From assembly GCA_028819575.1 (NCBI GenBank), contig JAPPLB010000123.1, forward strand, positions 1 to 64,000: 64,000 nucleotides of DNA, given 5' to 3'. Shown here in pieces: positions 15,991-59,962 of this stretch. This DNA is from Bryobacterales bacterium (GTDB taxonomy: Bacteria; Acidobacteriota; Terriglobia; Bryobacterales; UBA6623). Below the pieces are notes generated by a model. It was not told the DNA's origin. It did no database searches and worked only from the letters and a program-made list of their open reading frames with translations. Each line of letters starts with the position of its first letter. Position 1 is the first letter of the stretch. The position numbers and the translations under genes were made by a program.

Positions 15991-15998
15991 ACAGGTAG

Positions 15999-16140
15999 CC
16001 TGTATTTCTCACTGCGCGGCGAGGCGAAGTGGGTGAGAGGGGCGTCAGGACGAGGCGCAAGCCGGGCGGAGGAAAAAGGCGCGAGCCGCTTGGCGCGCGC
16101 AGGCGTACTTGAAAGTACATCGAGCACGGCATGCCAAGCT
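15999..16140 (+). repeat. Dispersed inverted-repeat element, copy A (right end lost)
   Basis: The left end CCTGTATTTCTCACT (15999-16013) matches the family terminus at 13 of 15 positions and is preceded by TAG. The interior (GGCGAGGCGAAG, GCCGCTTGGCGCGCGCAGG, GTACTTGAAAGTACAT, CGAGCACGGC) matches copy C in the same orientation. The right arm is lost: after GCACGGCATGCCAAGC the sequence diverges into a GC-rich palindrome just before the next gene. The end coordinate is approximate. Confidence 0.8.
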
Positions 16141-16168
16141 TGTGGCCCCGGGGGGCCGAACAGGGTAC

Positions 16169-17194
16169 ATGCGCCTCGTTGCCATTCTATGGGTAGGGCT
16201 GGTCTTCGGGACGAGCGCTTGCGACCGTGACCCCGTGGACGGTGTGGCGGCGCGGGTCAACGGCTACCGTATCACTCGCGCTGAACTCGAAAAGTATTAC
16301 CAAAGCCAGGTCGGCGACTCTCCCAGCGTCGGGACAGCGGATCAAGAGCGGATGCTGCGCTTGAATCTGCTCGGAGAGTTGATCGACCGCCAGATCATGC
16401 TCGATCGGGCCGAAAAGCTGGGGCTGATGGCCGTGGACGCCGAGGTCGAGAACAGCTATCAGGAATATCGATCGCGCTTCAAGGAAGACGCCGAGTTCGA
16501 CCGATATCTTGAGGATCGTGTGATCACGGTCGAGGAACTCAAAAACGAGATCCGCCGCAACTTGACGATCGAGAAGCTGCTGAACCATCAAATCACCTCA
16601 CGCATTCAGGTCGATGAACCCGAAGTGCGAACGTACTACGAGGGCAACATCGGGAGCTTTAACGTGCCGGAGCAGCAGGTGCACATGGCATGGATCCTGG
16701 TCACCGCCCGCAGCGAGACGCCGGTGCCCAATCTGCACAACGATGACGCCGTCGACGAGGAAGCCGCCAAGAAAAAGATCGAGATGATCGAGGCGCGGTT
16801 GCGAGACGGCGAGGAGTTCGCGACGCTGGCGCAGAACTACTCTGAGGATCCGGTCTCGACGGCAAGCGGTGGGGACCTGGGATTTATTCCGCAGTCTTCG
16901 CTCGAGCAGGTGGACCTGAGCCTTCGTCAAGTCGTCGCTTCGCTCACTCCCGGCGAGGTCTCGCCGATCGTCAAGACCGGCGACGAGTACCGCATCATCA
17001 AGCTCATCTCGGTGGAGCAGGCTGGTCAGCGCGACTATTCCGACCCGCGGGTCCAGCAGACCATTCGCGAGACGATTCGCAGCCGCAAAGATCAACTCCT
17101 CCGGGCCGCCTACCTTGAAATCGCCCGCAATGAAGCCGAGATCAAGAACTATCTGGCGCGGGAAGTCGTGGACGACTTTGGTGTATTGCACTAG
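16169..17194 (+). CDS. Parvulin-type peptidyl-prolyl isomerase lipoprotein (SurA/PpiC-like)
   Basis: 341 residues from the ATG at 16169. MRLVAILWVGLVFGTSAC is a short signal peptide ending in a likely lipobox Cys (18). A SurA-N-like helical region follows (about 25-165: VAARVNGYRITRAELEKYY, LLGELIDRQIMLDRAEKL). The parvulin domain is about 180-295, with the hallmark FATLAQNYSEDP, then GGDLGFIP and LTPGEVSPIVKTGDEYRI. It probably folds outer-membrane or secreted proteins. A longer frame from 16109 would start inside repeat copy A and lose the signal peptide. Confidence 0.9.
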   Translation: MRLVAILWVGLVFGTSACDRDPVDGVAARVNGYRITRAELEKYYQSQVGDSPSVGTADQERMLRLNLLGELIDRQIMLDRAEKLGLMAVDAEVENSYQEYRSRFKEDAEFDRYLEDRVITVEELKNEIRRNLTIEKLLNHQITSRIQVDEPEVRTYYEGNIGSFNVPEQQVHMAWILVTARSETPVPNLHNDDAVDEEAAKKKIEMIEARLRDGEEFATLAQNYSEDPVSTASGGDLGFIPQSSLEQVDLSLRQVVASLTPGEVSPIVKTGDEYRIIKLISVEQAGQRDYSDPRVQQTIRETIRSRKDQLLRAAYLEIARNEAEIKNYLAREVVDDFGVLH

Positions 17195-17289
17195 CTGAAT
17201 TTCCCATCCTCATGGCCTGCGGTTCCGCAAGAGGTTCCTTCCCGGCACGACGGGCCGATCGTCCGCGGACGGATCTGGAACGAACATAG

Positions 17290-17469
17290 CCTGCATTTCT
17301 CACCCCGGGGCGGGGCGAACGGTAGGACGAGGTACGAGTACGAGCCGCTTGGCGTGCGCAGGTGTACGTTATCCGTACATCGAGCACGGCCAGCAAGCAT
17401 TGCGAAGGAAAAGCGAAATCATGGCGGCCATATCGCGTGCTTCGGCCGTCATGTGGTGAGATACGCAGG
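17290..17469 (+). repeat. Dispersed inverted-repeat element, copy B (complete)
   Basis: 180 bp. The left terminus CCTGCATTTCTCACC (17290-17304) and right terminus GGTGAGATACGCAGG (17455-17469) are inverted repeats at 13 of 15 positions, flanked by TAG and CTA. The interior has GCCGCTTGGCGTGCGCAGG, a TGTACG-TTAT-CCGTACA hairpin and CGAGCACGGC. The right flank CTA (17470-17472) is the stop codon of the minus-strand M81 gene. The copy lies in a convergent gap, so it may act as a two-way transcription end. Confidence 0.88.
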
Positions 17470-19023
17470 CTAACGTGCTGCAAGATCTGGACGGGCGCGT
17501 TTGAACACGAAGTGCTTCGGATTGACGGAAGTGACGCCCGGACTATCGACGGTGATCACCTGAGCCGAGATCGGCTCATAGGCAGCCCGCGGCGCAATCA
17601 CTCCCTTGGCGACCAGGATCTTCTGTCGCTCGGGATACACACCGCAACTCCTCATCTGGTGCAGGCTGAACGGAATGACGCGCTTGCTGGTAAGCATCAG
17701 GATGTTCGGAAAATCGCGCGTCGATCCCTCGACTTCGATCACCGAGGTCAAACCCATATCCCAATAGCGGCCGCCCCCGTGACGCACTTCAGGTTCCACG
17801 AATCTTCCGTCGTGCAGCGACTTCACCCGGCCGCGAATGCGCACCGGATGGCCGTGCATGGAGTCCGACTTGCCGCCGACGAGCATGTCGAACTTACCGT
17901 CGATCCCGGCGGCGAAAGCCGCCTCGTTCGATTCCTTATCGTTGATGACAACGACCCAACCCTCGGCCCTCTGCTCGAGCAACGGATGGAGGATGAAAGT
18001 ACTGTCGCCCGGGGAGCCGCCGCCGATGTTATCGCCTGTGTCCATGAGGGTGATCGGAAATTCGTCAGCGGCCATCGCCATCTTCACGGCCTCCGAGGGG
18101 CTCGGCAGGTCCAACACGAGCTGGTCGCTGACGGCCAGCAGCATATCCGCTAGGCGCTTCGCCTCGCGCCGCGCCAACTCGGGGTCGTTATCCGTCACCA
18201 CGACCACGCTTGGGCCCATCGCCGGGATGTCGGACCACTGATATCCCGCCGACACGCTCGCGGCCAGGATCGTTGGATTCTGCTCCATCCGTCGGCTCTC
18301 GTCAACGATCGGCTTGAGCGGCTCGGTATACGTGTTTTGAAATACGAGATTGTAGAAAAGCGCGGGTTTCTCGATCGCGGAGGTGGGCTTCACCTTGCCC
18401 AGGATCGTGTTCGCCAGGATGCGCGCTGAGTGCACCCCTCTCTCTCTGGCGTCAAGGTGGGGATTCTCTTTGTAGGTGATGACCGCCGTCGCCTCCTCGA
18501 CGATCTCCTTCGACACGTTGGCGTGAAAATCGTGGGTGACCACGATTGGGATGTCGTTGCCGAAGGCAGTACGCACCCGCCGAACGACTTCCGCATCGGC
18601 GTGCGGATAGCTCTCGGCCACCATCGTGCCGTGCAGGTAGAGCAGGATGCCATCGAGTTTCGGCGCCGCCTGAAGACGCTCGATCAGCTCCTGCGTCAGA
18701 GCCTCGAACGCCTCGTCCGTCACCATGCCGATCGTTTGCGGCCCGGCGAGGATGGTCGGATAGAGTTCCAGTCCGTTCAGCCTGGCGCCCTCGATGTGCC
18801 CCGCCGTCACGTTGGTGCCGCCCGTGTATTCGTCCAGAATCTCCTGACCGCGCAAAATACCCTTTGCTCCGCGCAACCCCCTTGCAAAATCAGCGAGCGT
18901 GGTCTTCCTCGGATTGAACGTGTTCGTCTCGTGAGCGATACCACCCAATCCGACCAGAAGATCACGATCCTGCGCCGTCACGGTAGTTGCCAGTAGTAAA
19001 AGGAAGATGAATGGTTTGAGCAC
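17470..19023 (-). CDS. M81 family metallopeptidase (MlrC-like)
   Basis: 517 residues with a signal peptide (MLKPFIFLLLLATTVTAQ). The MlrC hallmark VGLGGIAHETNTFNP follows. Further family motifs are YLHGTMVAESYPHADAEVVR, VVTHDFHANVSKEIV, YKENPHLDARERG and DTGDNIGGGSPGDSTF. MlrC cleaves linearised microcystin, but most members are of unknown substrate. The start is a GTG. A TACAAT box lies 8-13 bases upstream on this strand (19031-19036), suggesting a very short leader. The stop codon is the edge of repeat copy B. Confidence 0.93.
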   Translation of the reverse strand: MLKPFIFLLLLATTVTAQDRDLLVGLGGIAHETNTFNPRKTTLADFARGLRGAKGILRGQEILDEYTGGTNVTAGHIEGARLNGLELYPTILAGPQTIGMVTDEAFEALTQELIERLQAAPKLDGILLYLHGTMVAESYPHADAEVVRRVRTAFGNDIPIVVTHDFHANVSKEIVEEATAVITYKENPHLDARERGVHSARILANTILGKVKPTSAIEKPALFYNLVFQNTYTEPLKPIVDESRRMEQNPTILAASVSAGYQWSDIPAMGPSVVVVTDNDPELARREAKRLADMLLAVSDQLVLDLPSPSEAVKMAMAADEFPITLMDTGDNIGGGSPGDSTFILHPLLEQRAEGWVVVINDKESNEAAFAAGIDGKFDMLVGGKSDSMHGHPVRIRGRVKSLHDGRFVEPEVRHGGGRYWDMGLTSVIEVEGSTRDFPNILMLTSKRVIPFSLHQMRSCGVYPERQKILVAKGVIAPRAAYEPISAQVITVDSPGVTSVNPKHFVFKRARPDLAAR

Positions 19024-19030
19024 GGCTGTG

Positions 19031-19098
19031 ATTGTAGCGCCTCGCGGAGGAAGGGCAGGATCGAACCGGGTCGTCGATCAGCGAGTGCTGCCTACAAT
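19031..19098. promoter_or_regulatory. Divergent promoter region with two TACAAT boxes
   Basis: Between the minus-strand M81 gene and the plus-strand TPR/ASPIC gene, TACAAT occurs once on each strand: minus strand at 19031-19036, plus strand at 19093-19098. Both fit -10 boxes. No good -35 box is seen at 16-18 bases for either. The plus-strand box overlaps the first candidate ATG (19097), which raises the chance that the real start is the ATG at 19115. Confidence 0.4.
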
Positions 19099-21481
19099 GA
19101 GAGACCCCGAAGCCATGCTGCAGCCTTCTCCCTCTTGGCGGTTCCGTCGATCGATCGTGATGCTTCTGCTCGCCATGGCGGCAACGGCAGGGGCGCTTGC
19201 CCAAGATGCCCTGCGGCAGGCTCGTCAACTTTATCAGCGAGGCGATTTCGGGGGCGCGGTCGTCGTTTTGAATCGACACCTCTCAGTGGAGCCGGAAGAC
19301 GACCAGGCCCGCATGCTGCTCGGGGTCTGCCACCAGCGCAGCGGCAACAACGAAGCTGCGGAGGCGGCTTTCCTCATGCTGGAGCACCGGAATCCGGGCA
19401 ATCCGCAAGTGTTGTTCATGCTGGCCTTGACACAGTTCACGACTGGGAAATACGACCAGGCCGAGTCGAATGGCTTGAAGGTCATCGCGTCGGGAACACA
19501 GGCCGGCCCCGCTCACCACCTGCTGGGTATGGTCTACGAAGAGCGGAACGCGCTTGACAAGGCCCTCGCTTCGTATGAACAAGCCATCAAGGCGGACCGG
19601 CAGCTCGTCGACGCTTATCTGAGCTCGGGGAGCGTCCTGCTGAAGCTGCGCCGTCCGGCCGACGCGCTGCCGATGTTGGACAAGGCGGTGGAGCTCCGTC
19701 CTGGTCTTGCCGAGGCTCACTATCACCGGGCCCGCGCACGAATTGAATTGGGACAACTGTCCGCTGCGCGAGAGGACCTGGAAACCACTGTCCGCCTGCA
19801 AGACCATCGCCAGGCCCGCAGCTTACTGGAGCGGGTGAAGTCAGGCGAGTTTGCAACGGTAAAGAGAATGGCGAAGGGAGATGCCCCGAAACCGCCGGCC
19901 ATGCTCTCGCCAATTCGCTTCCGCAATGTTGCCGGCCAGGCGGGTCTCGACTTCGTAGTCGCGAATCACCCTACCGCAGACAAGCACCTCGTTGAGACGA
20001 TGGCCGGCGGTATGGCGGCTTTCGACTACGACAACGACGGGCTCACCGACATCTTCTTCGCGAACGGAGCCGAGACCCCCAGCCTCGTGAAGACATTCGC
20101 GAAATACCACAATCGCCTCTTCCGCAACGTCGGGAACATGGAATTTCGCGACGTGACCGCGGCCGCAGGGTTGCAGGGCACTGGTTATTCGATGGGGGCC
20201 GCGGCCGGAGACTTCGACAATGATGGCTACGTGGACTTGTTCGTCCCCGGCGCCTTCGGCAACCTGCTCTACCGCAATCTCGGCAACGGACGTTTCGAAG
20301 AGATCACGGCGAATGCGGGCGTCAAGAGCGATCGCTGGTCCGTTGCGGCCGGCTGGTTTGACTATGACAACGACGGTTTTCTTGATCTTTTCGTCGTTGA
20401 CTACCTCCAGTGGTCACCCGAGAACAATCTCTACTGCGGTGACAACGCCAAGAAGCTGCGCACTTACTGTCATCCCAAATACTACGAGGGTCATCCGAAC
20501 ACCCTCTACCGCAACAAGAAGGACGGCACTTTCGAAGACGTCTCGGAGGCGTCGGGCATCGCGTCCCACGTCGGCAAGGGTATGAGCGTTGCCTTTGCAG
20601 ACTACGACCAGGACGGGCACGCCGACGTATTCATCACCAACGACACCGAACCCAACTTCCTTTTTCGCAACAGGGGAGACGGCGTGTTCGAGGAAGTGGC
20701 TCTGGAGGCTGGCCCCGCGCTCACCGACGATGGCCGGTCCGTTTCCGCCATGGGAATGGATTTCCGGGACTACGATAACGACTCGCTTCCCGACATCATC
20801 TTCACGGCGCTCGTTGGCGAGACATTCCCGGTCTTTCGCAACGAGGGGGGAGGTGTCTTCCGGGACGCCACCTACGGCACGAAAGTGGGCCGCCTCAGCA
20901 TGGGTCTCGCTGGCTGGGGCATCGGGTTGGTCGACTTCAACAACGACGGTTGGAAAGACCTCTTCACGGCGAACTCTCATGTCACCGACAACATCGAAGA
21001 ATTCTCAAGCGAGAAATACCGCCAAAACAATGCCGTTTGGGCAAACACGGGCCACGGGACTTTCCAAGATATGTCGTCCGGGTCAGGTGAAGCCTTTCAA
21101 ATACAACGCGCGCACCGCGGCAGCGCCTTCGCGGATTTCAACAACGACGGCCGCGTTGACGTTGTCGTCTCATCGCTCGAAGGACCCGCTGAACTCTGGG
21201 AAAATATCAGCGCCCCGGAGAAGCACTGGATTCGAATTCGTTTGAAAGGTGTTGGAAGCAACCGTGATGCTATTGGCGCGCGTGTGTCCGTCGACGGACA
21301 GCACAACCAAATGACGTCGAGCGTGGGTTACTCGTCGTCGAGCCTGGTGGGAGTGCACTTCGGCCTGGGGGATCGTGAACGGGTGTCCCGTATCGAGATT
21401 CTCTGGCCCAGCGGAGCCCATCAGGTCTTGCAGGACGTGGCTTCCGACCAGGTGCTGACCGTGATCGAACCCGACTGTTAG
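19097..21481 (+). CDS. Secreted TPR / FG-GAP repeat / ASPIC-UnbV protein
   Basis: About 794 residues. A signal peptide (IVMLLLAMAATAGALAQ) is followed by TPR repeats (roughly 35-260). A seven-bladed propeller of FG-GAP/VCBS repeats follows, with many Asp-rich calcium loops (FDYDNDGLTDIFFANG, FDNDGYVDLFVPGAFG, FADFNNDGRVDVVVSS). The ASPIC/UnbV domain closes the protein (HWIRIRLKGVGSNRDAIGAR, RIEILWPSG). It is exported, function unknown; such proteins are common in Acidobacteriota and Planctomycetota. The start is ATG 19097 or 19115. The stop TAG is the edge of repeat copy C. Confidence 0.9.
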   Translation: MRDPEAMLQPSPSWRFRRSIVMLLLAMAATAGALAQDALRQARQLYQRGDFGGAVVVLNRHLSVEPEDDQARMLLGVCHQRSGNNEAAEAAFLMLEHRNPGNPQVLFMLALTQFTTGKYDQAESNGLKVIASGTQAGPAHHLLGMVYEERNALDKALASYEQAIKADRQLVDAYLSSGSVLLKLRRPADALPMLDKAVELRPGLAEAHYHRARARIELGQLSAAREDLETTVRLQDHRQARSLLERVKSGEFATVKRMAKGDAPKPPAMLSPIRFRNVAGQAGLDFVVANHPTADKHLVETMAGGMAAFDYDNDGLTDIFFANGAETPSLVKTFAKYHNRLFRNVGNMEFRDVTAAAGLQGTGYSMGAAAGDFDNDGYVDLFVPGAFGNLLYRNLGNGRFEEITANAGVKSDRWSVAAGWFDYDNDGFLDLFVVDYLQWSPENNLYCGDNAKKLRTYCHPKYYEGHPNTLYRNKKDGTFEDVSEASGIASHVGKGMSVAFADYDQDGHADVFITNDTEPNFLFRNRGDGVFEEVALEAGPALTDDGRSVSAMGMDFRDYDNDSLPDIIFTALVGETFPVFRNEGGGVFRDATYGTKVGRLSMGLAGWGIGLVDFNNDGWKDLFTANSHVTDNIEEFSSEKYRQNNAVWANTGHGTFQDMSSGSGEAFQIQRAHRGSAFADFNNDGRVDVVVSSLEGPAELWENISAPEKHWIRIRLKGVGSNRDAIGARVSVDGQHNQMTSSVGYSSSSLVGVHFGLGDRERVSRIEILWPSGAHQVLQDVASDQVLTVIEPDC

Positions 21482-21658
21482 CCTGCATTTCTCACCACGC
21501 GGCGAGGCGAAGTGCGCGAGAGGGCCGTCAGGACCAGGCGCGCGCCGCTTGGCGCGCGCAGGCGTACTTGAACAGTACGTTGAGCACGGCAAGCAAGCGC
21601 AACGAAGTCCTGGCGGTCGTATCGTGTGCTTCGACCGTCGGGTGGTGAGAAATGCAGG
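21482..21658 (+). repeat. Dispersed inverted-repeat element, copy C (complete, perfect ends)
   Basis: 177 bp with perfect 15-bp terminal inverted repeats: CCTGCATTTCTCACC (21482-21496) and GGTGAGAAATGCAGG (21644-21658). The left flank TAG (21479-21481) is the stop codon of the TPR/ASPIC gene; the right flank is TTA. Inside are a GCGCGCC-GCTT-GGCGCGC hairpin and GTACT-TGAAC-AGTAC, then GAGCACGGCAAGCAAGCGC. It is about as similar to the reverse complement of copy D as two members of one family should be (most positions identical by eye). Confidence 0.92.
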
Positions 21659-23198
<1,540 letters not shown>

Positions 23199-23203
23199 AC
23201 TGA

Positions 23204-23773
23204 ATGGCGTTGGCGGATACCGGACAGAACCTCGTTTGCAGCCTCACTGCGGGCGGTGTCAGCGCGGGCTCTCCCGTCGCGCAAACAGAGTTCGCCACGC
23301 CATGGCAGGTCCGGCTGCGTATCCTACAGGACTATCGCGACATCGCGATGGTCGGCCTGTCCGCCAACCCCTACCGTCCCAGTCATTTCGCCGCGAGGTA
23401 CCTCCTTGCCGAGGGCTACAACGTCATTCCAGTGAACCCCCGCGAAAAAGAGATCCTCGGCCGGCAATCCTATCCCTCCGTAAAGGACATCCCTGGACCA
23501 GTTGATGTCGTGGACATCTTCCGTGCATCCAAAGAGGCGCCTTCGATCGTCGAGCAGGCTATCGCGATCGGCGCCAAGGTCGTCTGGATGCAGTTCGGTG
23601 TCATCAACTATGAGGCTGCCCGGCGTGCCCGCGAGGCAGGGCTTGAAGTCGTGATGGACCAGTGCATGAAGGTGGAGCACGCACGCTTCTTCGGCGGGCT
23701 GCATACGCTCGGATTGAACACCGGCATTGTGTCCTCCCGCCGATGGAACCCGGCCGCGGGCAGAAAGCCCTAG
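23204..23773 (+). CDS. CoA-binding domain protein (YccU-like)
   Basis: 189 residues with a Rossmann CoA-binding fold (about residues 40-155): ILQDYRDIAMVGLSANPYRPS, YLLAEGYNVIPVNPREKEI, PVDVVDIFRASKEAP and GAKVVWMQFGV. The cellular role of the family is not known. It starts five bases after metY, so the two are probably one operon. Its stop TAG shares a CTAG with the stop of the minus-strand aminotransferase gene. Confidence 0.88.
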   Translation: MALADTGQNLVCSLTAGGVSAGSPVAQTEFATPWQVRLRILQDYRDIAMVGLSANPYRPSHFAARYLLAEGYNVIPVNPREKEILGRQSYPSVKDIPGPVDVVDIFRASKEAPSIVEQAIAIGAKVVWMQFGVINYEAARRAREAGLEVVMDQCMKVEHARFFGGLHTLGLNTGIVSSRRWNPAAGRKP

Positions 23774-24936
23774 GCCGTACTACAAACTGCGAGAAGCCGT
23801 TCAAGGCCCTCTCGGAAGGTTTCTGGCCGCGGAAGCAGGCTCACCACCAGGAGTCCCTCCTGCGGAGCATCGAACAGGTACCCAGGATGCACGTGCACTC
23901 CCTCCGCAAGCAGGTCGAGCGCCCACTGCTCGTCGCCGCGGGTCCTTGGGACCCTGAGGAGCGCATACCACCCGGCCTGGGCCTCGAGCCGATCGCAGGC
24001 AGTGCGCGATAGAATCTCGTCGAGCCTATTCAAATTGCCCCGAATCCTGTTCAGGATGTTGCACTGCACACTGTGACGAAGCTGTAGCAAAGCAGGAGCC
24101 GCGAGTTGTACGGGCGTATTCACCGATAGATACGTGTCGCCGATTACCTCCAGGCGCGCCAGCGCCTCATCACGGATCGCTTGCGGTCCCGTCACGACCA
24201 TCCAACCCAGTTTCATCTGAGGCAATGCCGCTATCTTCGATAGCCCGCTCAGCGTCAATGTCAAGCAGGACTCTTCAGCGGCCGTGCTTGCGGGCGTCTT
24301 TCCTGTTCTGCACCAGCGATAGTCGAGAAACACCTCGTCGACGATCAGCGCCAATCTTCGCTCGGCGGCGATTTGCGCGATGCGACGGCGTTCTTCCTCC
24401 AGCAGATAAGACCCGGCGGGATTATTCGGCGACACAGTGATGATGGCTCTCGTTCGCGGTGTGATCGATGCCTGCAAAGTCTCAATATCGATCGCCCATC
24501 CATGGTCATAGACCAGTGGATAGCTCGTCAGCACGATGTCGTGCAGCTTCGCCAAGTAGTCAAGAAGCGGATAGCTCGGCCGCGAGACCAAGACCTCATC
24601 GCCGGGTTGCGCCAGCAGTTGGAATGCGAACGCGTATCCCTCGCTGGTGCTCGCGGTAAGAACAATCTTTTGCACATCGACATCGACTCCGTGATCGGAA
24701 TAATAGGCCCGCACTGCGTTGCGGGCGAGCAGTGCACCCCTCGGCTGGGGGTCATACGAGTCAATGGAGGCGCGGCTTAGCGCGGCGTTGAGCGTAATGG
24801 AGTCGGGTGACAGGCCGCATCGAGTCGGATTCGATTCCGTGAGATCGATGGTGTCGAGTCCCTCTGCGCGCCTCGTCGCGAAGGCCTCCGACAAGCGATT
24901 CGGATTGCGTCGCCAGTTCGTGCGGGGGGAAAACAT
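23770..24936 (-). CDS. PLP-dependent aminotransferase, class I/II
   Basis: 388 residues, fold type I aminotransferase (AspC/AlaA-like). Visible features: TESNPTRCGL near the N-terminus, YDPQPRGALLARNAV, the NNPAGS loop at ITVSPNNPAGSYL, VDEVFLDYRW, and the PLP lysine in TLSGLSKIAALPQMKLGW. The amino acid substrate cannot be told from sequence. It ends tail-to-tail with the CoA-binding gene at a shared CTAG and is divergent from the gamma-glutamyltransferase gene. Confidence 0.92.
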   Translation of the reverse strand: MFSPRTNWRRNPNRLSEAFATRRAEGLDTIDLTESNPTRCGLSPDSITLNAALSRASIDSYDPQPRGALLARNAVRAYYSDHGVDVDVQKIVLTASTSEGYAFAFQLLAQPGDEVLVSRPSYPLLDYLAKLHDIVLTSYPLVYDHGWAIDIETLQASITPRTRAIITVSPNNPAGSYLLEEERRRIAQIAAERRLALIVDEVFLDYRWCRTGKTPASTAAEESCLTLTLSGLSKIAALPQMKLGWMVVTGPQAIRDEALARLEVIGDTYLSVNTPVQLAAPALLQLRHSVQCNILNRIRGNLNRLDEILSRTACDRLEAQAGWYALLRVPRTRGDEQWALDLLAEGVHVHPGYLFDAPQEGLLVVSLLPRPETFREGLERLLAVCSTA

Positions 24937-25016
24937 CGGGATCGCAAGGTCTCGTTCAGGGCACCGGAAATGAATGGGAAACTCGCGCCCCGGAGTTCAA
25001 AAAGGAGACTGCTATC

Positions 25017-26915
25017 ATGACAGAGATTTCGTGCAAGGCCGCTATGGTCTCCTTTCCCCGGCTCTTTCTCGGCTTGATCCTCGGCGCGCTTCTTTCGCCG
25101 CCCGCTTTACCGCAGCGCACGCAAGACGCCGGGAAGAATAGAGACCAGATGAACTGGCGCGTGTTGCGCCCCGTTGTGCGTGGCACCAGGGCGGCGGTAG
25201 CCGCGGGAGCTCCGCTCTCGAGCGAAGCAGCCATGCGCATTCTGCACACGGGCGGAAACGCTGTAGACGCGGGAGTCGGCGGACTGTATGCGGCAGCCGT
25301 CTGTGAGTTTTCTCACTTCGGGTTCGGCGGCGAAGCACCCATCCTGATCCGGACGGCAGAGGGACAGGTACACTCTATCGGCGGTCTCGGTACGGCTCCC
25401 CGGAAGATGACCCTGGAGTTCTTCCGCTCGCACCGTCAGGAGCCGGAGATCGTACAGGAATCCCTCCGGCGGGGCCACAACGGAGGGCCGATCCCAGCCT
25501 ACGGAATTCTGCCGGCCCTGGTTCCCGGCATGGTGGACGGCGGGTTGCTCGCGCTGCGGGACTTCGGTACGCGATCGTTCGGAGAGATCATTCAACCCGC
25601 TATCGATCTGGCGGATGGCATGCCGGTCGACGGCTTTCGATCGTCCTCGATTGCACACGCCGTTCGCATTTTCAAGCTGTTCCCGACATCCCAAAGGGTC
25701 TATCTCCCGAACGGCAGAGTTCCTCGTGTGGGCAGCATCTTCCGTCAACCGGACTTGGCTCGGACGCTGCGCTCGATGATGGCTGCAGAGAAAGAGGCTC
25801 TCGCGAAAGGAGCCACACGGGAGGCGGCGATCGATGCGGTCCGCGATTTCTTTTACCGGGGCGAGATCGGGCGAAAGATCGGGCGCTTTTCGAAAGACAA
25901 CGGGGGGCTGCTGCGGTACGAAGACCTGGCCAACTTCCGGCTGGAAGTGGAAGAGCCGGAGATGGTGACCTACCGTGGGTTCGATGTCTATAAAAACGGA
26001 TTCTACACCCAGGGACCGATTCTCCTGCAAGCTTTGAATCTGCTCGAAGGCTTTAACCTCCGCTCCATGGGATGGAACACGGCTGAATACATCCACATCA
26101 TCGTGGAAGCCCTCAAGCTGGCCTACGCCGACCGCGACACCTACTATGCCGATCCCGAGTTTTCGGAGATTCCGGCGGTGCTTCTCACCAAGACGTATGC
26201 TGCCCAAAGGCGGGAATTAATCGAGCCGACGCAAGCCTCGAGCGAGTTTCGGCCTGGTCGCTTCGGTGCAAGACAGCCGCCCCACCCGGCGTTCTATGCC
26301 GGCAGGCTTCGGCCTTTGACGGACGCCTTGGCATCGAGAGACACGACCTGTCTGAATATTATCGACAACTCCGGAGTCATGTTCTCGGTAACGCCGTCAG
26401 GCGCTTGGATGCCTTCTGTCATCGCGGCCGACACCGGCATTCCGCTGACTCAGCGAGCCCAGAGCTTCCTGATGATTCCAGATCACCCGAATGTCGTTGC
26501 ACCGGGCAAGCGTCCACGCATCACGCTGTCGCCGACCCTGATCACCAGGCGCGGACAGCCCGTCATGGCCCTCTCGACACCCGGGGGAGACCAGCAGGAC
26601 CAGGCATTGGTGCAAGTGATGCTGGCGGTGCTGGAGTTCGGGCTCAATCCGCAAGCGGCGGTCGAGGCTCCACGGATTCAGACGAGGCATCTGGTGGCAA
26701 GCTTTGACGATCACGCGATGGACCCGAATCTTCTCTTGCTGGATGAACGGATTCCGCCTTCCGTCGAAGCGGCTCTCAAACAGCTCGGACATCAAGTCGA
26801 GCGCCGCAGCCGTTGGAACAGCGGCTCCGCGCCCGTGGCCGTCCTGAAAACCCCCAACGGTGTCATCTCCGCAGGGGCCGACCCCTACGGCTACCGCTAC
26901 GCTGACGCCTGGTAG
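25017..26915 (+). CDS. Gamma-glutamyltransferase family protein (Ntn hydrolase)
   Basis: 632 residues with an N-terminal hydrophobic signal (FPRLFLGLILGALLSPPALP), so it is exported. It is a self-cleaving Ntn hydrolase of the GGT family. The large-subunit start has AAMRILHTGGNAVDAGVGG; the autoprocessing site is at DTTCLNIIDN, where Thr becomes the nucleophile. The usual TTH here reads TTC. The small subunit has GKRPRITLSPT and ALSTPGGDQQDQALVQV, typical of GGT-like proteins. A good ribosome site (AAAGGAGA) precedes the ATG. The stop TAG is followed by CCTGC, a possible repeat remnant. Confidence 0.92.
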   Translation: MTEISCKAAMVSFPRLFLGLILGALLSPPALPQRTQDAGKNRDQMNWRVLRPVVRGTRAAVAAGAPLSSEAAMRILHTGGNAVDAGVGGLYAAAVCEFSHFGFGGEAPILIRTAEGQVHSIGGLGTAPRKMTLEFFRSHRQEPEIVQESLRRGHNGGPIPAYGILPALVPGMVDGGLLALRDFGTRSFGEIIQPAIDLADGMPVDGFRSSSIAHAVRIFKLFPTSQRVYLPNGRVPRVGSIFRQPDLARTLRSMMAAEKEALAKGATREAAIDAVRDFFYRGEIGRKIGRFSKDNGGLLRYEDLANFRLEVEEPEMVTYRGFDVYKNGFYTQGPILLQALNLLEGFNLRSMGWNTAEYIHIIVEALKLAYADRDTYYADPEFSEIPAVLLTKTYAAQRRELIEPTQASSEFRPGRFGARQPPHPAFYAGRLRPLTDALASRDTTCLNIIDNSGVMFSVTPSGAWMPSVIAADTGIPLTQRAQSFLMIPDHPNVVAPGKRPRITLSPTLITRRGQPVMALSTPGGDQQDQALVQVMLAVLEFGLNPQAAVEAPRIQTRHLVASFDDHAMDPNLLLLDERIPPSVEAALKQLGHQVERRSRWNSGSAPVAVLKTPNGVISAGADPYGYRYADAW

Positions 26916-26930
26916 CCTGCGAACTCTGTT
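26913..26930 (+). repeat. Possible decayed repeat terminus at the GGT stop codon
   Basis: TAGCCTGC at the stop of the gamma-glutamyltransferase gene equals the first eight bases of the repeat family (TAG flank plus CCTGC). The following GAACTCTG has drifted. It again sits in a convergent gap (only 33 bases). On its own this match is too short to be sure. Confidence 0.35.
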
Positions 26931-26948
26931 GGCTCCGCGACCTTCCGC

Positions 26949-28082
26949 TCAGATGCCGGCCGGAATTTCGACAACGTAAACCTGCGTGTGTCCCGACCGG
27001 TCGCTGGCGAAGGCAATCATCGATTCGTCCGGTGAGAACGACGGGTGGGGATGAGTCCACTGGGGGCCGTAAACGGTATCGACCGCCATCTCCATCCAAC
27101 TCAGGGCCTTGTCCTTGTCAGCCTCGGCGCGCGCCGCCGCCCAGTCTTCGGCTACGGCATAGCGGGACGTCAGCCATTGCGTCCCGCCGTTTGAGCTTTG
27201 AGGGTAGCAAAGGGTCTCACGATCGCCCGTCGCGACATCCACAAGCTGAATGCCGATGTCGGGCTGATTCGTGTCGCACAAGATCTTCGTGCCAGCGCGG
27301 TTGGGCGTGATATGCCAAGCGTTGAACTCCGCGATGGTATGGATTGCTCTCGTCTCCCAGCTCATGCGCTTCAGCGCCCTCGGCCAAACCGTGAACACCA
27401 GATCGCCGGTGTCACCGAGAAAGGTCTCGTGAACCACGAACTCGTCGTTGTCGTGCTCATACAAGCATTCGATTTCCGACCCGTCGCGACGCATCCGGAA
27501 CATCCGTGGCGCCGGGTCGGCCGCGAACTCGATCCACTCAGAATCGACTGGCGAGAATTGCGGATGAATAACGGTTCGATCGAACGGTATGGTCTGCTGG
27601 CGGCCTGCCGAGGTATGTCCCACGACGACGCCGTTCTGCTGTCCGGTCTTGCAGGCAGCTACGAACCAGTCACCGTCGCGGCTGAGGGAGCATTCGCCGA
27701 GTTGCCCGTCGAATTCAGCGATGAGTCTCTCTCCCAGGCTGTCGCGGTCGATTACGAAGACCGATCCACCGCGTACGAAATAGACCGATTCGCCGTCAGG
27801 GGCGATGGCGGGAGAAAACGGATGGATCGGGCCGTCACTGGTAAGCTGCCGAATCTCGCCATCGAAGACGCCCACTTCGAAGAGTTGCGCCTGTCCGGTG
27901 CGGTAGGACGCAAAGACCAGGGCCTCTTGGTCGGGCGTAAATGAACTCTGCAAGAAGTACGTCGGATGGTTGATCGATGGATGATTCGTAAGTTGATGGA
28001 CTCGCGCGCCGGTCTGCTCGTCCTCGAATACGGTGTGCTCGGATGGAAAGAGGGCGCCTTTACCGGTAGTCATGCCCTTCAT
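26949..28082 (-). CDS. Oligogalacturonide lyase-like beta-propeller (PL22-type)
   Basis: 377 residues with no signal peptide. It has WD40/TolB-like propeller repeats: SSFTPDQEALVFASYRTG, FSPAIAPDGESVYFVRGG and PQFSPVDSEWIEFAADP. The end, THPHPSFSPDESMIAFASDR, is like the family-22 pectate/oligogalacturonate lyases, which use Mn in a propeller. That makes it a candidate for intracellular breakdown of pectic oligosaccharides, but the catalytic residues were not verified. It is the last gene of a minus-strand operon; its ATG overlaps the stop of the CehA-like gene (ATGA). Confidence 0.8.
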   Translation of the reverse strand: MKGMTTGKGALFPSEHTVFEDEQTGARVHQLTNHPSINHPTYFLQSSFTPDQEALVFASYRTGQAQLFEVGVFDGEIRQLTSDGPIHPFSPAIAPDGESVYFVRGGSVFVIDRDSLGERLIAEFDGQLGECSLSRDGDWFVAACKTGQQNGVVVGHTSAGRQQTIPFDRTVIHPQFSPVDSEWIEFAADPAPRMFRMRRDGSEIECLYEHDNDEFVVHETFLGDTGDLVFTVWPRALKRMSWETRAIHTIAEFNAWHITPNRAGTKILCDTNQPDIGIQLVDVATGDRETLCYPQSSNGGTQWLTSRYAVAEDWAAARAEADKDKALSWMEMAVDTVYGPQWTHPHPSFSPDESMIAFASDRSGHTQVYVVEIPAGI

Positions 28083-30235
28083 CGGCCCTCGGCGGCAACC
28101 CCTTCGTAGTAGGCCCTCGCCTTCTTGAACAGTGCGACCACTTCCTGACGTTGCTCTTCGGAAGCGAATCGACCCTTGTCCTGGACTCGTGAGATCAACT
28201 GGTCGACCCAGGCGACGAAGAACTGCCCGTCCTCCCTGCGCGAGACTCCTTTGCCGTCGACGGTCAGATAGACGGGACTCGTGTGTGCGTACAGATCGGT
28301 GTCATTGACCAGATAGCGGTGGAAATCGCCGCGGACACGAGCGGCAACCCAGGAGCCCTCCGCAACAGGAATCTCCTTCGTAAGCTGAACGAATGATCCA
28401 TCCGCGCGAGGTTCCTCGCTGGCGACCACCTCGCCGTTGACCACGATCTCCAGTCGTTTCATCGGGACGAGCGAGGTGGCCGACGCCTCCACGCGAATCC
28501 TGTCACCGGACGAGATCTTGAGCTCGTCGCCAGGGAGTCGGCCGTTCACCTTAAATCGAAGTATCGGGCCATTCGTGGCGAAGCTCCGCCCTTTTCGAAA
28601 GTTCTCAACCCAGTCGCCGGCGTTGAGTGCATCACCGGTGTAGACATAGACACGGTGGCCGCCGGGGATCCAATGATGGCGACGGTTCGTGAAGCTGTCG
28701 GTGCCGGCGGAGATCGCACAGCGCAAGCCGGTGTTCAGCAGACGATACCAGTAGGGCGTTGCGGCGTCTTCGTTCGAGTTGCTCATCACATCCATCGCAT
28801 CGACGGAGCCGAGCGCCAGGTCCACCGGCATTTCACGAGCGCTCATGGTTTGCGGGTCGGAGGTAAAGCTGTATCCCGGATGGGCGTAGCTCGCCACGCC
28901 GCCCTGTTGCTTGGCGCCCCACGCCTGGACGTGATTCGGCGGATAATCGTGCGGGTACGAGGTATCGCTAAAACCCGTGTAGAGCGGCTTGACGAGTTGT
29001 TTCAGACCCGTGAAGCACATATGCCCATAGGGGCCGTTGTTGCGCATCTCCTCGCCCCAGTAGAGGATGTGCGTCGGATCGCTCAACTTGTGAGGACGCC
29101 CCTCGAAATACTGCTCGTCGTGAACTTGCGGTCCAGACGAGTTCGCAACCATCAAATTCGCGTAGTTGAGGTCCTCGCCGAGGACCTGGGTCTGAATGTC
29201 CTCCGGTGTCATGAACTCGTGGTCGTTGTAGTTGACGTGCGTGTGGAGATCGCCGCCATACCAATGTCTCTTCGCCAAGTGGGATGTGCGCTCGAGCTTG
29301 ATGGTGACAGCGGTCGTTTCGCCGGCGAGCACTTCGACGTCATGCTTGACGGGTTTGTACTCGATTCCCCGAACCGCCTCGATCGAGGCAGTTCCCTCGG
29401 GAATGCGGATCTCGTGCTCGCCACGGCTGTAGTAGAAGTAGTCACCGTGGGTCCACGTGATGCGGGAGAGTGTGGCGTCGCCGGCCCGTCCGTCGGGTGC
29501 ATAGGCAAGGCCGTCGGAACCGCGCACGTAGACGCGGGCCGCAACCGCGGCGCCGTCCTCCTCCGTCCTGACGCGCAACCTTCCCCAGCTCACGACTTCG
29601 ATCGGGAAACGAGTCGTCGACCCAATCCGGCTTTCGGGCGGCGATCCTTCAGAGGGGATATCGATTCCGGCGAAGACCCGGACCCTCGCTTCGCGCGGTT
29701 CGAGCGACTGCGGCCGGAGGTTCAGCAAGGCATACGTCACACGTCCAGCCGATGCGGTCCAACGGTCGGTGGGTCCGATGTCGCCGACGGTCGCGATGAT
29801 CTTGATGTCCTTCGTTTGGTCCAACTCGTTCCGCAACATCACGGGCAGGTTGTAGGTTTCCCGGAGGCCCAAGCGCAGGCGGTCGGGCTTCGCGACGACC
29901 TCCAGTCCCGACGAGTTGAGGCGTATCTTGAGCACACCGGGAAGATCGAGATCCCATAGCTCCGGTATTCCAGCGCGCCGCCAACGGCGGAACGACACCG
30001 TCAAAGGCAAATGGAAATCCCCATCCCGGCGCAGCAGGATCCGCACCATGTCGAGTTCCGTCAGCGGACCCGGATAGTTGACGGGCTGGAACCCTTGGCG
30101 GGACGTCTCGAATGTATATTCGTCCCCAGGGGTGGGCAGGTTGCGTCCCGCCGTCGAGATCTCGGCAACCCACCAGAGGCATACCGCAAACCCAAGAAGA
30201 ATCCCTAAGCGCTTGGCGATCATGGGGGCAATCAT
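28079..30235 (-). CDS. CehA/McbA-type PHP-fold metallohydrolase, secreted
   Basis: About 718 residues from the first ATG (30235). A TTG at 30286 would overlap the preceding gene, and the ATG at 30223 starts MIAKRLGILLGFAVCLWW, a good signal/anchor, so the start is uncertain. The PHP-type metal site is GGDLHTHVNYNDHEF, then YWGEEMRNNGPYGHM, YAHPGYS and SAGTDSF. Carboxypeptidase-like beta domains flank it. CehA and McbA hydrolyse carbamate esters; the substrate here is unknown. It is in an operon with DUF1501 and DUF1549/DUF1553 genes upstream and a PL22-like gene downstream. Confidence 0.88.
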   Translation of the reverse strand: MIAPMIAKRLGILLGFAVCLWWVAEISTAGRNLPTPGDEYTFETSRQGFQPVNYPGPLTELDMVRILLRRDGDFHLPLTVSFRRWRRAGIPELWDLDLPGVLKIRLNSSGLEVVAKPDRLRLGLRETYNLPVMLRNELDQTKDIKIIATVGDIGPTDRWTASAGRVTYALLNLRPQSLEPREARVRVFAGIDIPSEGSPPESRIGSTTRFPIEVVSWGRLRVRTEEDGAAVAARVYVRGSDGLAYAPDGRAGDATLSRITWTHGDYFYYSRGEHEIRIPEGTASIEAVRGIEYKPVKHDVEVLAGETTAVTIKLERTSHLAKRHWYGGDLHTHVNYNDHEFMTPEDIQTQVLGEDLNYANLMVANSSGPQVHDEQYFEGRPHKLSDPTHILYWGEEMRNNGPYGHMCFTGLKQLVKPLYTGFSDTSYPHDYPPNHVQAWGAKQQGGVASYAHPGYSFTSDPQTMSAREMPVDLALGSVDAMDVMSNSNEDAATPYWYRLLNTGLRCAISAGTDSFTNRRHHWIPGGHRVYVYTGDALNAGDWVENFRKGRSFATNGPILRFKVNGRLPGDELKISSGDRIRVEASATSLVPMKRLEIVVNGEVVASEEPRADGSFVQLTKEIPVAEGSWVAARVRGDFHRYLVNDTDLYAHTSPVYLTVDGKGVSRREDGQFFVAWVDQLISRVQDKGRFASEEQRQEVVALFKKARAYYEGVAAEGR

Positions 30236-30278
30236 AGCAACCGCTGCGCCCGGCTCCGGCTTTTGGGGAGAAGCAGCC

Positions 30279-31697: not shown

Positions 31698-31698
31698 A

Positions 31699-43577: not shown

Positions 43578-43959
43578 GTAACGGAACCATCTGCTGCACC
43601 GGCAGAGGCAGCACGTGGTGAGCAAGGCAGGTCAGGAGGGCGACAATCCCAGCCCGCTTTTCTCAGCTCCGGCGGCACAGAAGCGTACCGCGCACATGGT
43701 GAGACATTCAGGTCCAAGCCTGCCTTTCTCCCCACCCGACGGCCGCAATACGCGATAACAAGGCCGTGATTCGTGACCCAAAAACCTGGGCAGGCGGTAC
43801 GACCGTTGCTCCAGGGTGGCTTGCATTGAGGCCGAGGCTCGTGCAAGGCCGTGTTTCGTGAAATACCTTAAAGGCCACGTTGCTTGCGCCAAGCGGCTCG
43901 CGCCTCGTCCTGACGGGCCTCTCACCCACTTTGCCTCGCCACGTGGTGAGACATGCAGG
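43578..43959. repeat. Tandem array of inverted-repeat elements between TPR gene and lon
   Basis: 382 bases without a gene. Three right-end sequences occur in series: GGTGAGCAAGGCAGG (from 43616), GGTGAGACATTCAGG (43698-43712) and GGTGAGACATGCAGG (43945-43959). Two left ends precede the last two: CCCGCTTTTCTCAGC (43653-43667) and CCTGCCTTTCTCCCC (43719-43733). Copy G is about 60 bp (43653-43712), copy E about 241 bp. The whole gap is thus made of family members. Confidence 0.75.
43719..43959 (-). repeat. Dispersed inverted-repeat element, copy E (241 bp)
   Basis: Left end CCTGCCTTTCTCCCC, right end GGTGAGACATGCAGG. The interior runs in the same orientation as copy D: CCCGACGGCCGC, ACGCGATAACAAGGCC, then GCCAAGCGGCTCGCGCCTCG, TCCTGACGGGCCTCTCAC and CCACGTGGTGAG. 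It carries about 60 extra bases in the middle with two similar units (GGCCGTGATTCGTGACC and GGCCGTGTTTCGTGAAA). The right flank TCA (43960-43962) is the stop codon of lon. Confidence 0.82.
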
Positions 43960-46455: not shown

Positions 46456-46472
46456 AGATTCCTTCACTCCGA

Positions 46473-50778: not shown

Positions 50779-50843
50779 AAGGACGTGTTTCGTGTCTCGT
50801 GACCCGCAAACACTTCGCTTCTCCATGTGGGGAGAAATACAGG
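50779..50843 (-). repeat. Dispersed inverted-repeat element, right-end remnant
   Basis: GGGGAGAAATACAGG (50829-50843) is a family right end (13 of 15). The stretch before it, GTGTTTCGTGTCTCGTGACC and ACACTTCGCTTCTCCATG, resembles the interior of copies D and E. It begins immediately after the TlpA stop. The left terminus is missing. Confidence 0.6.
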
Positions 50844-55937: not shown

Positions 55938-55952
55938 CCTGCATTTCTCGCG
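55938..55952 (+). repeat. Dispersed inverted-repeat element, left-end remnant
   Basis: CCTGCATTTCTCGCG (55938-55952) matches the family left end at 13 of 15 positions and is preceded by TTA. No interior or right end of the family follows; GGGCAGTGGGTGATGAACC comes next. It sits in the divergent gap between the macrodomain gene and nuoB. Confidence 0.55.
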
Positions 55953-56167: not shown

Positions 56168-56187
56168 GTTCTCTTCGGGGATCACGA

Positions 56188-57469: not shown

Positions 57470-57484
57470 TCTGCGAGGGTTCTC

Positions 57485-57498: not shown

Positions 57499-57519
57499 AG
57501 GAGTTCACCGGCGCGAACA

Positions 57520-57951: not shown

Positions 57952-58015
57952 GGAATCCGGGCTTCAACGCCTTCTTGGATTGTAATCTTCCATACGCGGC
58001 GCAGATAGAACGGAC

Positions 58016-58052: not shown

Positions 58053-58055
58053 CTA

Positions 58056-58433
58056 ATGAAGACGAAAACTAACGTCCTTACTCCGCAGGAACTCGAAATC
58101 ATGAAGGTCGTCTGGGAGCGGGGAGCAAGCACCGTCCGCGATGTCTACGAGCTTCTTCGCAAAAAGCGCAAGGTCGCCTACACAACGGTGATGACGATGA
58201 TGAACATCCTGGTCGACAAGAAGCACCTGCAACGAGAGAAAGTAGACGGCGCGTATCGCTACGAGCCGACCAAGCCGAAGAAGCAGGTTGTGGGCGCAAT
58301 GGTGCGGGACTTTGTCGGCCGGGTCTTCGATGGATCGGCGCGGCCCTTGTTGCTGCAACTGGTCGAGGATCGGCACTTGACCGAAGCGGACCTGCAAGAG
58401 ATCGAGCAACTCATCGAGGAGAAGCTGAAATGA
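58056..58433 (+). CDS. BlaI/MecI/CopY family repressor
   Basis: 125 residues. The winged helix is about residues 9-75: LTPQELEIMKVVWERGASTV, AYTTVMTMMNILVDKKHLQR. The C-terminal dimerisation region ends LTEADLQEIEQLIEEKLK. It represses its own operon until the M56 sensor protein triggers its cleavage. The ATG sits right behind an operator-like palindrome and there is hardly room for a ribosome site. It overlaps the M56 gene by four bases (ATGA). Confidence 0.93.
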   Translation: MKTKTNVLTPQELEIMKVVWERGASTVRDVYELLRKKRKVAYTTVMTMMNILVDKKHLQREKVDGAYRYEPTKPKKQVVGAMVRDFVGRVFDGSARPLLLQLVEDRHLTEADLQEIEQLIEEKLK

Positions 58434-59776
58434 TGTCGTGGTGGGTTGGGAATCTGTTTGACTACTCATTGCAGGTCATGCTGTTGATTACGGCCGGCAG
58501 CCTGCTTGCGGCGGTGTTTCGGCTGCGCGAGCCGCGAGTCCGGCTTGCCTGCCGGCAAACACTTCTGGCCTGTTGCCTGCTGCTGCCGCTGGTGCAGCCT
58601 TGGCGCGAACCGGTTGCGACCCCGGCCTCGGACTTCACCCTGGCGGCTCCGGTAGCTGCTGTGGGCAATGGGCTGGACGAGTCGTGGGGTACTGTGGCCG
58701 CTTTCGTGCTCGGAGGCGGAGCCGTCTTTCATCTGCTGTGGTTGGGCGCCGGGATCATCCGGCTCCGTCGTCTGAAAAAGTCGGCGCGACGATTCGATGC
58801 CCGCGAGGAACGTGTTCCGGTGCTCACTACAGGGAACGTAGCTCCTCAGTTTCTTGTCACTTCACTGGTGGATGGACCCGTCACGTTCGGCTGGTTTCGA
58901 CCGGTCATACTTCTGCCGGAATCGTTTGCCGAGACCCATCCCGGAACGCAATCAGCCGTACTCACCCATGAGCTGGTTCACGTAGAGCGCCGTGACTGGT
59001 TGTGGACCGCAGCGGAAGAAATCATCCGGTCCCTGTTGTGGTTTCATCCGGCTGTTCGTTGGCTGATCAGCCGGATTCAGCTTGCTCGCGAGCAGGTGGT
59101 GGACCGTGAAGTCGTGAACCGCACCGGTGACCGTGAAGCGTATCTGCGCGCGTTGGTGGAGATCACAAAGGCTCGCGCCGCTCCGGCGTTCCCGGCAGTT
59201 CCCGCCTTCCTGCGAAGGTGGCATCTCAAAGCAAGAGTCCAAACTCTCTTGGAGGAGGTATCGATGACGAAGTCTCGAATGGTCGTTTCGCTGGCCGCGG
59301 CGGCTGTTTTGTTGACCGCAGTGGGCGTCTTGGCGGTCTCTTACTTCCCTTTGCACACGGATTCCCAACAGGCGCGGGATCTTGAACGCGGCGAGGACGG
59401 AGCCTCCCCACGCCACTTTCGCGATCTCGATGAACGCCAAAGGCGCAATATCCTCGAAGGTCTTGAAGGCCGGACTCGTCAGGGGAATCTCGAACGCGTC
59501 GGGAACGGAGTCTCCGCACCCCGGCTCCTGAACAAGGTCGAGCCGGTGTACAGCGAGGAGGCGCGCGAAGCGAAAGTGCAGGGAACCGCAGTCCTTGAAA
59601 TGGAAGTCTGGCCCGATGGCAAGGCTCACAATATCCGAGTCGTGCGCGGCCTCGGCAGTGGGCTCGACGAGCAAGCGGTGAAAGCGATCGAGCAGTGGGA
59701 GTTCGAGCCCGGGATTAAGGGTGGCGAGCCGGTGCGCGTCGCCGCCACTGTCGAGATGAACTTCCGGATGAACTAA
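58430..59776 (+). CDS. BlaR1-like M56 metallopeptidase with C-terminal TonB domain
   Basis: 448 residues. Three N-terminal membrane segments (MLLITAGSLLAAVF, LLACCLLLPLV, AAFVLGGGAVFHLLWLGAGI) precede the cytoplasmic M56 protease with the zinc motif AVLTHELVHVERRDWLW. A further membrane span (VVSLAAAAVLLTAVGVLAV) follows at about residues 285-305. Instead of the penicillin-binding sensor of BlaR1 the protein ends in a TonB-C domain: APRLLNKVEPVYSEEAREAK, EQAVKAIEQWEFEPG. It may sense or connect envelope state to BlaI cleavage. The TAA stop is the edge of repeat copy D. Confidence 0.9.
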   Translation: MMSWWVGNLFDYSLQVMLLITAGSLLAAVFRLREPRVRLACRQTLLACCLLLPLVQPWREPVATPASDFTLAAPVAAVGNGLDESWGTVAAFVLGGGAVFHLLWLGAGIIRLRRLKKSARRFDAREERVPVLTTGNVAPQFLVTSLVDGPVTFGWFRPVILLPESFAETHPGTQSAVLTHELVHVERRDWLWTAAEEIIRSLLWFHPAVRWLISRIQLAREQVVDREVVNRTGDREAYLRALVEITKARAAPAFPAVPAFLRRWHLKARVQTLLEEVSMTKSRMVVSLAAAAVLLTAVGVLAVSYFPLHTDSQQARDLERGEDGASPRHFRDLDERQRRNILEGLEGRTRQGNLERVGNGVSAPRLLNKVEPVYSEEAREAKVQGTAVLEMEVWPDGKAHNIRVVRGLGSGLDEQAVKAIEQWEFEPGIKGGEPVRVAATVEMNFRMN

Positions 59777-59952
59777 CCTGCATTTCTCACCTCCCGACGG
59801 TCGAAGCACGCGATACGACCGCCATGACTTCGTTGCGCTTTCTTGCCGTGCTCAATGTACCGTCGAGTACACCTGCGCGCGGCAAGCGGCGCGCGCCTCG
59901 CCCTGACGGCCCTCTCACGCACTTCGTCTTGCCACGTGGTGAGAAATACAGG
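59777..59952 (-). repeat. Dispersed inverted-repeat element, copy D (complete)
   Basis: 176 bp in the opposite orientation to copies A-C. The termini CCTGCATTTCTCACC (59777-59791) and GGTGAGAAATACAGG (59938-59952) match at 14 of 15. The interior reads CCCGACGGTCGAAGCACGCG, GACTTCGTTGCGCTTTCTTG, CCGTGCTCAATGTACC, GAGTACACCTGCGCGCGG, as the reverse complement of copy C. The left flank TAA is the stop of the M56 gene; it fills a convergent gap with only 10 bases to spare. Confidence 0.92.
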
Positions 59953-59962
59953 CTAAGGGTCG

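Follow-up and report, generated by a model that had tools for sequence, protein, structure and literature searches.

Prokaryotic miniature inverted-repeat transposable elements (MITEs) are thought to derive mainly from insertion sequences (ISs), according to a MITE review (PMC10969869) whose main text does not mention IS1380. Two described cases lie closest to the element studied here, a ~176-bp repeat dispersed in a 64,000-nucleotide stretch of a Bryobacterales bacterium genome (contig JAPPLB010000123.1, positions 1 to 64,000; the window): MITEAba12/ISAba12 (PMC6382973) and RUP/IS630-Spn1 (PMC2229807). All three are short and non-coding, share terminal repeats with a co-resident IS, and show matching target duplications, some of them decayed. 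The element differs from both in having IS1380 ends and a YTAR duplication (Y, pyrimidine; R, purine) rather than one of 9 bp or TA, and in having a core conserved by structure over several phyla. It shares CCYGCATTTCTCACC ends and the YTAR duplication with the IS1380 family (NF033539, PF13701), whereas it has no gene for a transposase and none of the IS1380 loci searched contained its core. IS1380 is given as the outgroup for the piggyBac superfamily in PMC10813416; the 4-bp TTAA duplication of piggyBac is one form of YTAR and common end motifs begin CCC, but piggyBac is eukaryotic, and the likeness would appear to be only a resemblance. The Caulobacter CIR and Correia repeats are likewise bacterial repeats with RNA stem-loops, and CIR is conserved between Caulobacter and Brucella (PMC2229807 and PMC10969869); the present element recurs in several phyla. 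REP/RAYT palindromes, of 20-40 bp and tied to the RAYT transposase, differ by description in size and duplication. Among papers on IS1380, MITEs, CTAG, repeats, and mobile structured RNA, a search covering few subscription journals found nothing of this kind named in a title or in the opening of an abstract, and parts of the terminus matched full-text literature just in three papers titled on other subjects.

We conclude, with a probability of roughly 0.88, that the repeats represent a non-autonomous transposon of ~176 bp that IS1380-family (DDE) transposases mobilize in trans, duplicating YTAR, and that they most likely form a passenger lineage with a conserved core. Its duplication, its empty sites, the ends that it shares with IS1380, and open IS1380 transposase genes in the same genome were all observed; an IS1380 transposase would be the enzyme that does the moving. 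The terminus CCTGCATTTCTCACC has 16 matches in the window at up to 3 mismatches, against a mean of 1.75 and a maximum of 5 in shuffled sequence, although one of the 16, at 55938-55952 (2 mismatches), lies inside an open reading frame (ORF) and may be chance. The repeat family proposed from sequence alone is therefore real, and copies B, C, D, and E and a mini-palindrome were confirmed. It also extends well beyond the window. The window genome (G000; 5.37 Mb, 200 contigs) contains 812 instances of YTAR followed by the terminus, one mismatch being allowed, whereas a reversed control gave none, and DNA similarity detected the element in all three genomes of the genus that were searched, with a short partial match in 1 of 38 other relatives.

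Copies were sampled from 80 stretches plus the window (1.485 Mb of 5.37 Mb). The stretches from G000 and from G002, a sibling species of the same genus, were picked partly for hits there, and copy density hence falls outside the scope of the sample. It contains 139 face-to-face terminus pairs at most 600 bp apart, 90 of them spanning 170-189 bp. Of the 138 paired copies with flanks, 40 agree between the two sides for exactly 4 bp, one for 1 bp, none for 2 or 3 bp, and no more than one for any other length. YTAR stands on both sides of 60 copies and is identical in 38, against 17.8 in shuffles, of which the largest reached 28. The sequence-only reading had described TA flanks; TA does occupy the central flank letters on both sides of 74 of 132 copies, but the outer letters, 1 and 4, also agree between sides in 87 and 86 of 132 copies (shuffles, 67.2 and 65.5), and the flank unit is the 4-bp YTAR rather than TA alone, as for an IS1380-type transposase. 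The copies in the window are listed below. Scores refer to R1, a model of 176 positions and 56 pairs made from copy C and nine other sequences, two of them from one metagenome-assembled genome (MAG); G000 and G052, a MAG titled Gammaproteobacteria, both contributed. ORFs come from our own gene-calling script, and the gene names ASPIC, M56, M81, lon, PHP, and GGT are labels of the sequence-only reading.

15999-16202, plus strand: copy A, degraded and one-ended, adjoining GTAG; R1 30.7 bits, E 2e-6; repeat D2.
17290-17469, plus strand: copy B, 180 bp, flanks ATAG/CTAA; R1 63.3 bits; common to the sibling. Its right flank contains the TAG stop 17470-17472 (minus) of the minus-strand ORF 17470-19023 (M81).
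21478-21481, plus strand: left duplication of copy C, TTAG, including the TAG stop 21479-21481 of ORF 19007-21481 (ASPIC).
21482-21658, plus strand: copy C, 177 bp, intact, with perfect 15-bp terminal inverted repeats; R1 151.6 bits (plus) and 69.2 bits (minus), copy C being one of the ten model sequences.
21659-21662, plus strand: right duplication of copy C, TTAG.
35546-35587, plus strand: mini-palindrome, 42 bp, arms without core; R1 16.0 bits, E 0.025. It adjoins the TAG stop 35588-35590 (minus) of the minus-strand ORF 35588-36988 (PHP).
43617-43712, strand not assigned: three decayed termini adjoining copy D, 2-3 mismatches.
43719-43959, minus strand: copy D, 241 bp, interrupted core; R1 40 bits. 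Its right flank, TCAG, contains the TGA stop 43960-43962 (minus) of ORF 43960-46494 (lon).
50829-50843, minus strand: isolated decayed terminus, 2 mismatches.
59773-59776, plus strand: left duplication of copy E, CTAA, including the TAA stop 59774-59776 of ORF 58430-59776 (M56).
59777-59952, minus strand: copy E, 176 bp, with a minus-strand core; R1 123.5 bits (minus) and 47.8 bits (plus).
59953-59956, plus strand: right duplication of copy E, CTAA.

Orthologous sites in the sibling are consistent with insertion. Much of the window aligns collinearly with contig G002:C20, which lacks some window stretches; the shared blocks are 89-97% identical, apart from one short block at 78%. At the copy C site, TTAG-[177 bp]-TTAG in the window corresponds to GACTG-TTAA-GGATCGG in the sibling, and at the copy E site CTAA-[176 bp]-CTAA corresponds to ATGAA-CTGA-GGG. 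In place of the TA duplication that the sequence-only reading had expected of a TA-targeting MITE, these two sites thus reveal a 4-bp tetramer, present once in the sibling, whose genes therefore end in stops there without the element. Outside the window, comparing flanks matched 18 sites one way and 8 the other way; a crude rule, some of whose labels are false by eye, classed 11 and 5 of them as empty. The cleanest is at L178 10423-10599, CTAG/CTAG against one CTAG. Copy A was rejected as an empty site: 15999-16121 is missing from the sibling, which keeps an apparent core remnant, so the site is not a clean one.

The ends of the element match those of IS1380. G000 has two open IS1380-type transposase genes plus fragments, and the L038 transposase matches PF13701 at E 2.9e-148 and NF033539 at E 4e-115. 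The IS1380 at L200 8857-10580 reads CTAG, then CCTGCATTTCTCACC ... GGTGAGATATCCGGG, then CTAG, with CCTGCATTTCTCACC exact at one end; that of L038 (also L195) is flanked by CTAA and begins CCCGCATTTCTCACC, and the far end of the L038 and L200 ISs is CCCGGATATCTCACC. Similar ends adjoin YTAR in the IS1380 elements L039 and L040, which come from relatives, and at the one end seen of L275, which comes from an Eisenbacteria MAG. Terminal inverted repeats and duplication of the element match on both counts, with CCYGCATTTCTCACC-type ends and a 4-bp YTAR (CTAA and CTAG in the ISs). For each of 30 elements, the closest of the 14 IS1380 end sets sampled differs at 0-3 of 16 letters; the G341, G318, and G048 sets, as well as the element end used for G048, were hand-entered on the basis of one-sided matches. 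Distances between element and IS within the same genome were 2 (G152), 0 (G318), 0 (G341), 6 (G270), and 1 (G048), summing to 9 against 16.6 expected (p 0.02; five pairs, two of them, G318 and G341, from one genus, and our own genome outside the test). In the phylum sample, IS1380 accompanies the element in 18 of 60 host genomes, where 8.0 would be expected (Fisher p 2.6e-4, without regard to relatedness).

The interior gives a different picture. Over 26 IS1380 loci, strong R1 matches were separate element copies, and the best match inside an IS (L200 8857-8949, 13.1 bits, E 0.048) was at the terminal repeat; sequence differs between element and IS behind that repeat. The element is accordingly unlikely to be an internal-deletion derivative of IS1380. 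Among ten intervals with identical-YTAR termini 0.7-4 kb apart and an ORF of at least 200 aa, which might hold another autonomous partner, four are IS1380 elements (L038, L039, L040, L200); of the six others, the four whose ORFs were scanned with Pfam yielded no transposase (L177 and L178 lay outside the scan). At L325 1359-1364 (G341), an element-like end is followed by CTAA and then immediately by the start of an IS1380 copy, an arrangement that looks like insertion of IS1380 into the flank of the element.

Several findings weigh against this reading. Mobilization itself was not observed, and 78 of the 138 paired copies lack YTAR on both sides, although some of these may have used other tetramers. 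Copy D is missing from the sibling, which carries the same TCAG, and neither its flanks (CAAG/TCAG) nor the sibling TCAG show YTAR. The G270 element used in the distance test misfits the IS of its genome at 6 of 16 letters; a second copy there (L311 989-1170), examined after the test, differs from the IS end at 1 of 16. In 42 of the 60 phylum-sample genomes that carry the element no IS1380 reached E<=1e-20, and of 13 further host genomes 7 had none at E<=0.001 (present in 6); draft assemblies and lost partners may account for this. Finally, only 20 of 54 sources reach 60 bits with R1, so that possession of the terminus does not by itself indicate the core.

If the IS1380 reading is correct, the transposase would recognize the 15-16-bp terminal inverted repeats, CCYGCATTTCTCACC, insert at the palindromic YTAR, and duplicate it. 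Insertion at a stop codon would leave a stop-bearing tetramer on each side and harm neither gene, because YTAR reads TAA or TAG in either direction. With about one-quarter of non-genic YTAR sites being stops in this 61% G+C genome, joins would arise without function, at convergent genes too, and loss of harmful insertions would presumably add slightly to them. The element is likely a long-lived passenger lineage in which a transcribed hairpin, or a folded single strand, may be under selection.

The core recurs far outside the genus. An exact scan for YTAR plus terminus found at least 86 stretches, with titles including Verrucomicrobia, Gammaproteobacteria, Nitrospira, Planctomycetota, Acidobacteria, and others (the names are taken from record titles, and most of the records are metagenome assemblies that may be misbinned), and many paired copies there share inner motifs: CGTMGCGAG on one side, GCCGCAGTAG on the other, and a central hairpin, GGCGTA...TACGTYGAG. 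Sources outside the model that score at least 60 bits with R1 include, by record title, Eisenbacteria (L136), Verrucomicrobiia (L158), and Thiodiazotropha (L103); sources below 60 bits gave weak, partial, mini, or no match. At E<=1e-6, R1 matches came from at least 60 of the 396 genomes searched in the window's phylum (representing 43 of 211 genera) and from at least 31 of 369 in the class to which G052 belongs, counts that are lower bounds because 6-7 candidates were scored per genome under strict filters. Most full matches listed were ~173-178 nt, as judged by eye. RNAalifold predicted 57 pairs, 34 of them kept via two-sided changes in at least one sequence. In an alignment of 44 sequences (A4), which was fitted to the model and favors its structure, 91.9% of cells pair, and 438 cells are doubly changed, against 129 in shuffles (0 of 500 as high) and 63-98 when partners were slid.

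The two strands are not equivalent. With the motif CGTNGCGAG alone setting the strand, the motif strand gave the stabler RNA in 14 of the 16 cross-phylum copies that could be decided, out of 18 (the contrary L084 and L139 match the core weakly), in 29 of 30 phylum-search copies (contrary, L306), and in 12 of 12 class-search copies, a few copies in these tests coming from one genome. The consensus fold is -87.8 kcal/mol on the motif strand and -49.5 kcal/mol on the other. The asymmetry stems largely from kept G-U pairs (columns 122/141 hold GU in 29 of 44 sequences, columns 28/270 in 23 of 44) and argues for RNA. On these models the core is a conserved, covarying, strand-asymmetric hairpin in several phyla, which is unexpected for a MITE-like element whose core was not found in the searched presumed-IS loci. 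Whether a bacterial MITE carries working RNA becomes testable. The core was not found in Rfam 15 or in the literature searched: with 8 element-bearing loci at E<=5, none of the four Rfam matches listed fell at an element. One contig that also carries the element has a group II intron match (RF00029, 40.6 bits, L157 179-251).

The odds seem to us even that the repeats of the window are one member of a widespread mobile structured-RNA family, its fold selected as RNA, traveling as an IS1380-type passenger over several phyla with terminal repeats exchanged or tracked while the core is kept. In such a family the RNA may help its own mobilization, for example by transposase binding, or may act on the host. 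That the conserved core instead acts as DNA, through binding sites or as an extruded or single-strand hairpin in transposition, is the less likely account, if the strongest of the competing ones. The subterminal motifs, CGTMGCGAG on the left and CTACTGCGGC on the right, do recur close behind the terminal repeats; copy C folds well as single-stranded DNA (z -9.7), and genomic orientation is unbiased. Yet a DNA role sits poorly with the kept G-U pairs and the strand difference of the consensus fold, and no core match better than E 0.048 was seen within IS1380 elements of the 26 loci.

The joins to stop codons that first drew attention to the repeats are largely a matter of target availability. 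Of six such joins reported in the window, five are exact ORF ends (ASPIC, M56, M81, lon, PHP). The sixth, at the GGT stop 26913-26915, was rejected: the bases behind it share just CCTGC with the terminus, no terminus match is listed there, and the sibling aligns 21658-33879 as one block. Across the sample, of the 132 copies that are 100 bp or longer, 42 are joined exactly to a stop codon, and 44 of 137 incoming gene ends lie at distance zero. Among non-genic YTAR sites outside elements, 204 of 847 (24.1%) are stop codons, and the youngest copies, those with identical YTAR flanks, are joined at that rate (9/37, 24.3%; p 1.0). Stop joins are thus mostly a by-product of insertion, because YTAR holds TAA or TAG on both strands; repeats that appear welded to stop codons are explained by a target tetramer that is itself a stop codon on either strand, and available target sites should be counted before such joins are read as function.

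An excess remains, however, and counts against insertion preference as the whole account. The full set is joined more often than the sites predict (42/132 versus 24.1%, p 0.042), as are copies without YTAR on both sides (26/74, p 0.030), copies of G002 (14/33 versus 24.8%, p 0.026), and copies of a MAG titled Deltaproteobacteria (8/12 versus 41.3%, p 0.085). When sites within 100 bp before a start were dropped, the mild excess stayed (34/89 versus 137/509, p 0.041). The tabulation of stop distances is divided, with young copies at the availability rate and a modest excess in the whole set and two other genomes. Availability explains most joining, leaving a 1.3- to 1.7-fold excess that probably reflects the survival of harmless insertions, with weak selection the less likely reading. 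No copy (0/132) lies inside a gene, a count not used as evidence, since insertion itself breaks the called ORF.

The excess, together with the very stable hairpin of copy C (RNA -120.8 kcal/mol, z -11.5) and the presence of a copy in 4 of 11 convergent gene pairs of the window, is what might be expected of a bidirectional transcription-end element selected at gene ends, as the sequence-only reading had also proposed. Its observation on convergent pairs held (one of the four copies is the mini-palindrome; pairs were counted by eye on our own gene calls), but we consider the functional interpretation very improbable. Young copies show no excess, and copies occupy convergent, tandem, and divergent contexts (30, 75, and 24) as available YTAR sites do (164, 472, and 201; chi-square p 0.33, excluding 3 copies at edges and 2 overlapping sites). 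One strand folds much better than the other, yet orientation shows no preference, either in tandem contexts (39 sense, 36 antisense) or at joined ends (23 and 21). Joined copies are no better preserved, being no closer to copy C than others (p 0.41), and copies C and E are missing in the sibling, whose genes end in stops at those sites. Copy C, the sole copy scanned, contains no hairpin followed by a T run and no promoter that we could find; the sole terminator-like site in 21400-21760 (0.3 expected) lies outside it.

The other proposal of the sequence-only reading, a TA-targeting MITE of the IS630/mariner kind with a 2-bp TA duplication and a matching transposase, was right in kind, a transposon, and wrong in family: despite TA at the flank center on both sides of 74 of 132 copies, it is hardly credible and was rejected, given the 4-bp duplications (identity over 4 bp in 40 of 138 copies and over 2 bp in none), outer flank letters that agree beyond shuffles, single tetramers at the empty sites, and ends and a tetramer that belong to IS1380 elements (IS630 transposases were not searched for).

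Some further arrangements accompany the repeats. Many G000 contigs start within a copy (e.g., C5:37, C6:38, C16:36), and repeats therefore probably broke the assembly. Arms-only mini-palindromes of 34-47 bp also occur at L086 3261-3294, L161 7728-7774, L108 1057-1103, L104 7408-7441, and L178 9606-9644. The sibling has a 176-bp copy at the site of the last, so at least one mini-palindrome looks like an internal deletion; the sibling likewise has a longer copy at the mini-palindrome site by the PHP gene. A second repeat (GGCCGTGATTCGTGTCTCGTG...) is present at 43780-43870 and 50779-50815, and at L176 5102-5381 and L063 18151-18431, beside or inside older copies, stretching some to 240-280 bp. 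The stretch at 33950-34090, with the end ...CTCTCAGGCACTTCGCCCCGCCCACTTGGGGAGACATGCGAG, is probably a further decayed copy end.

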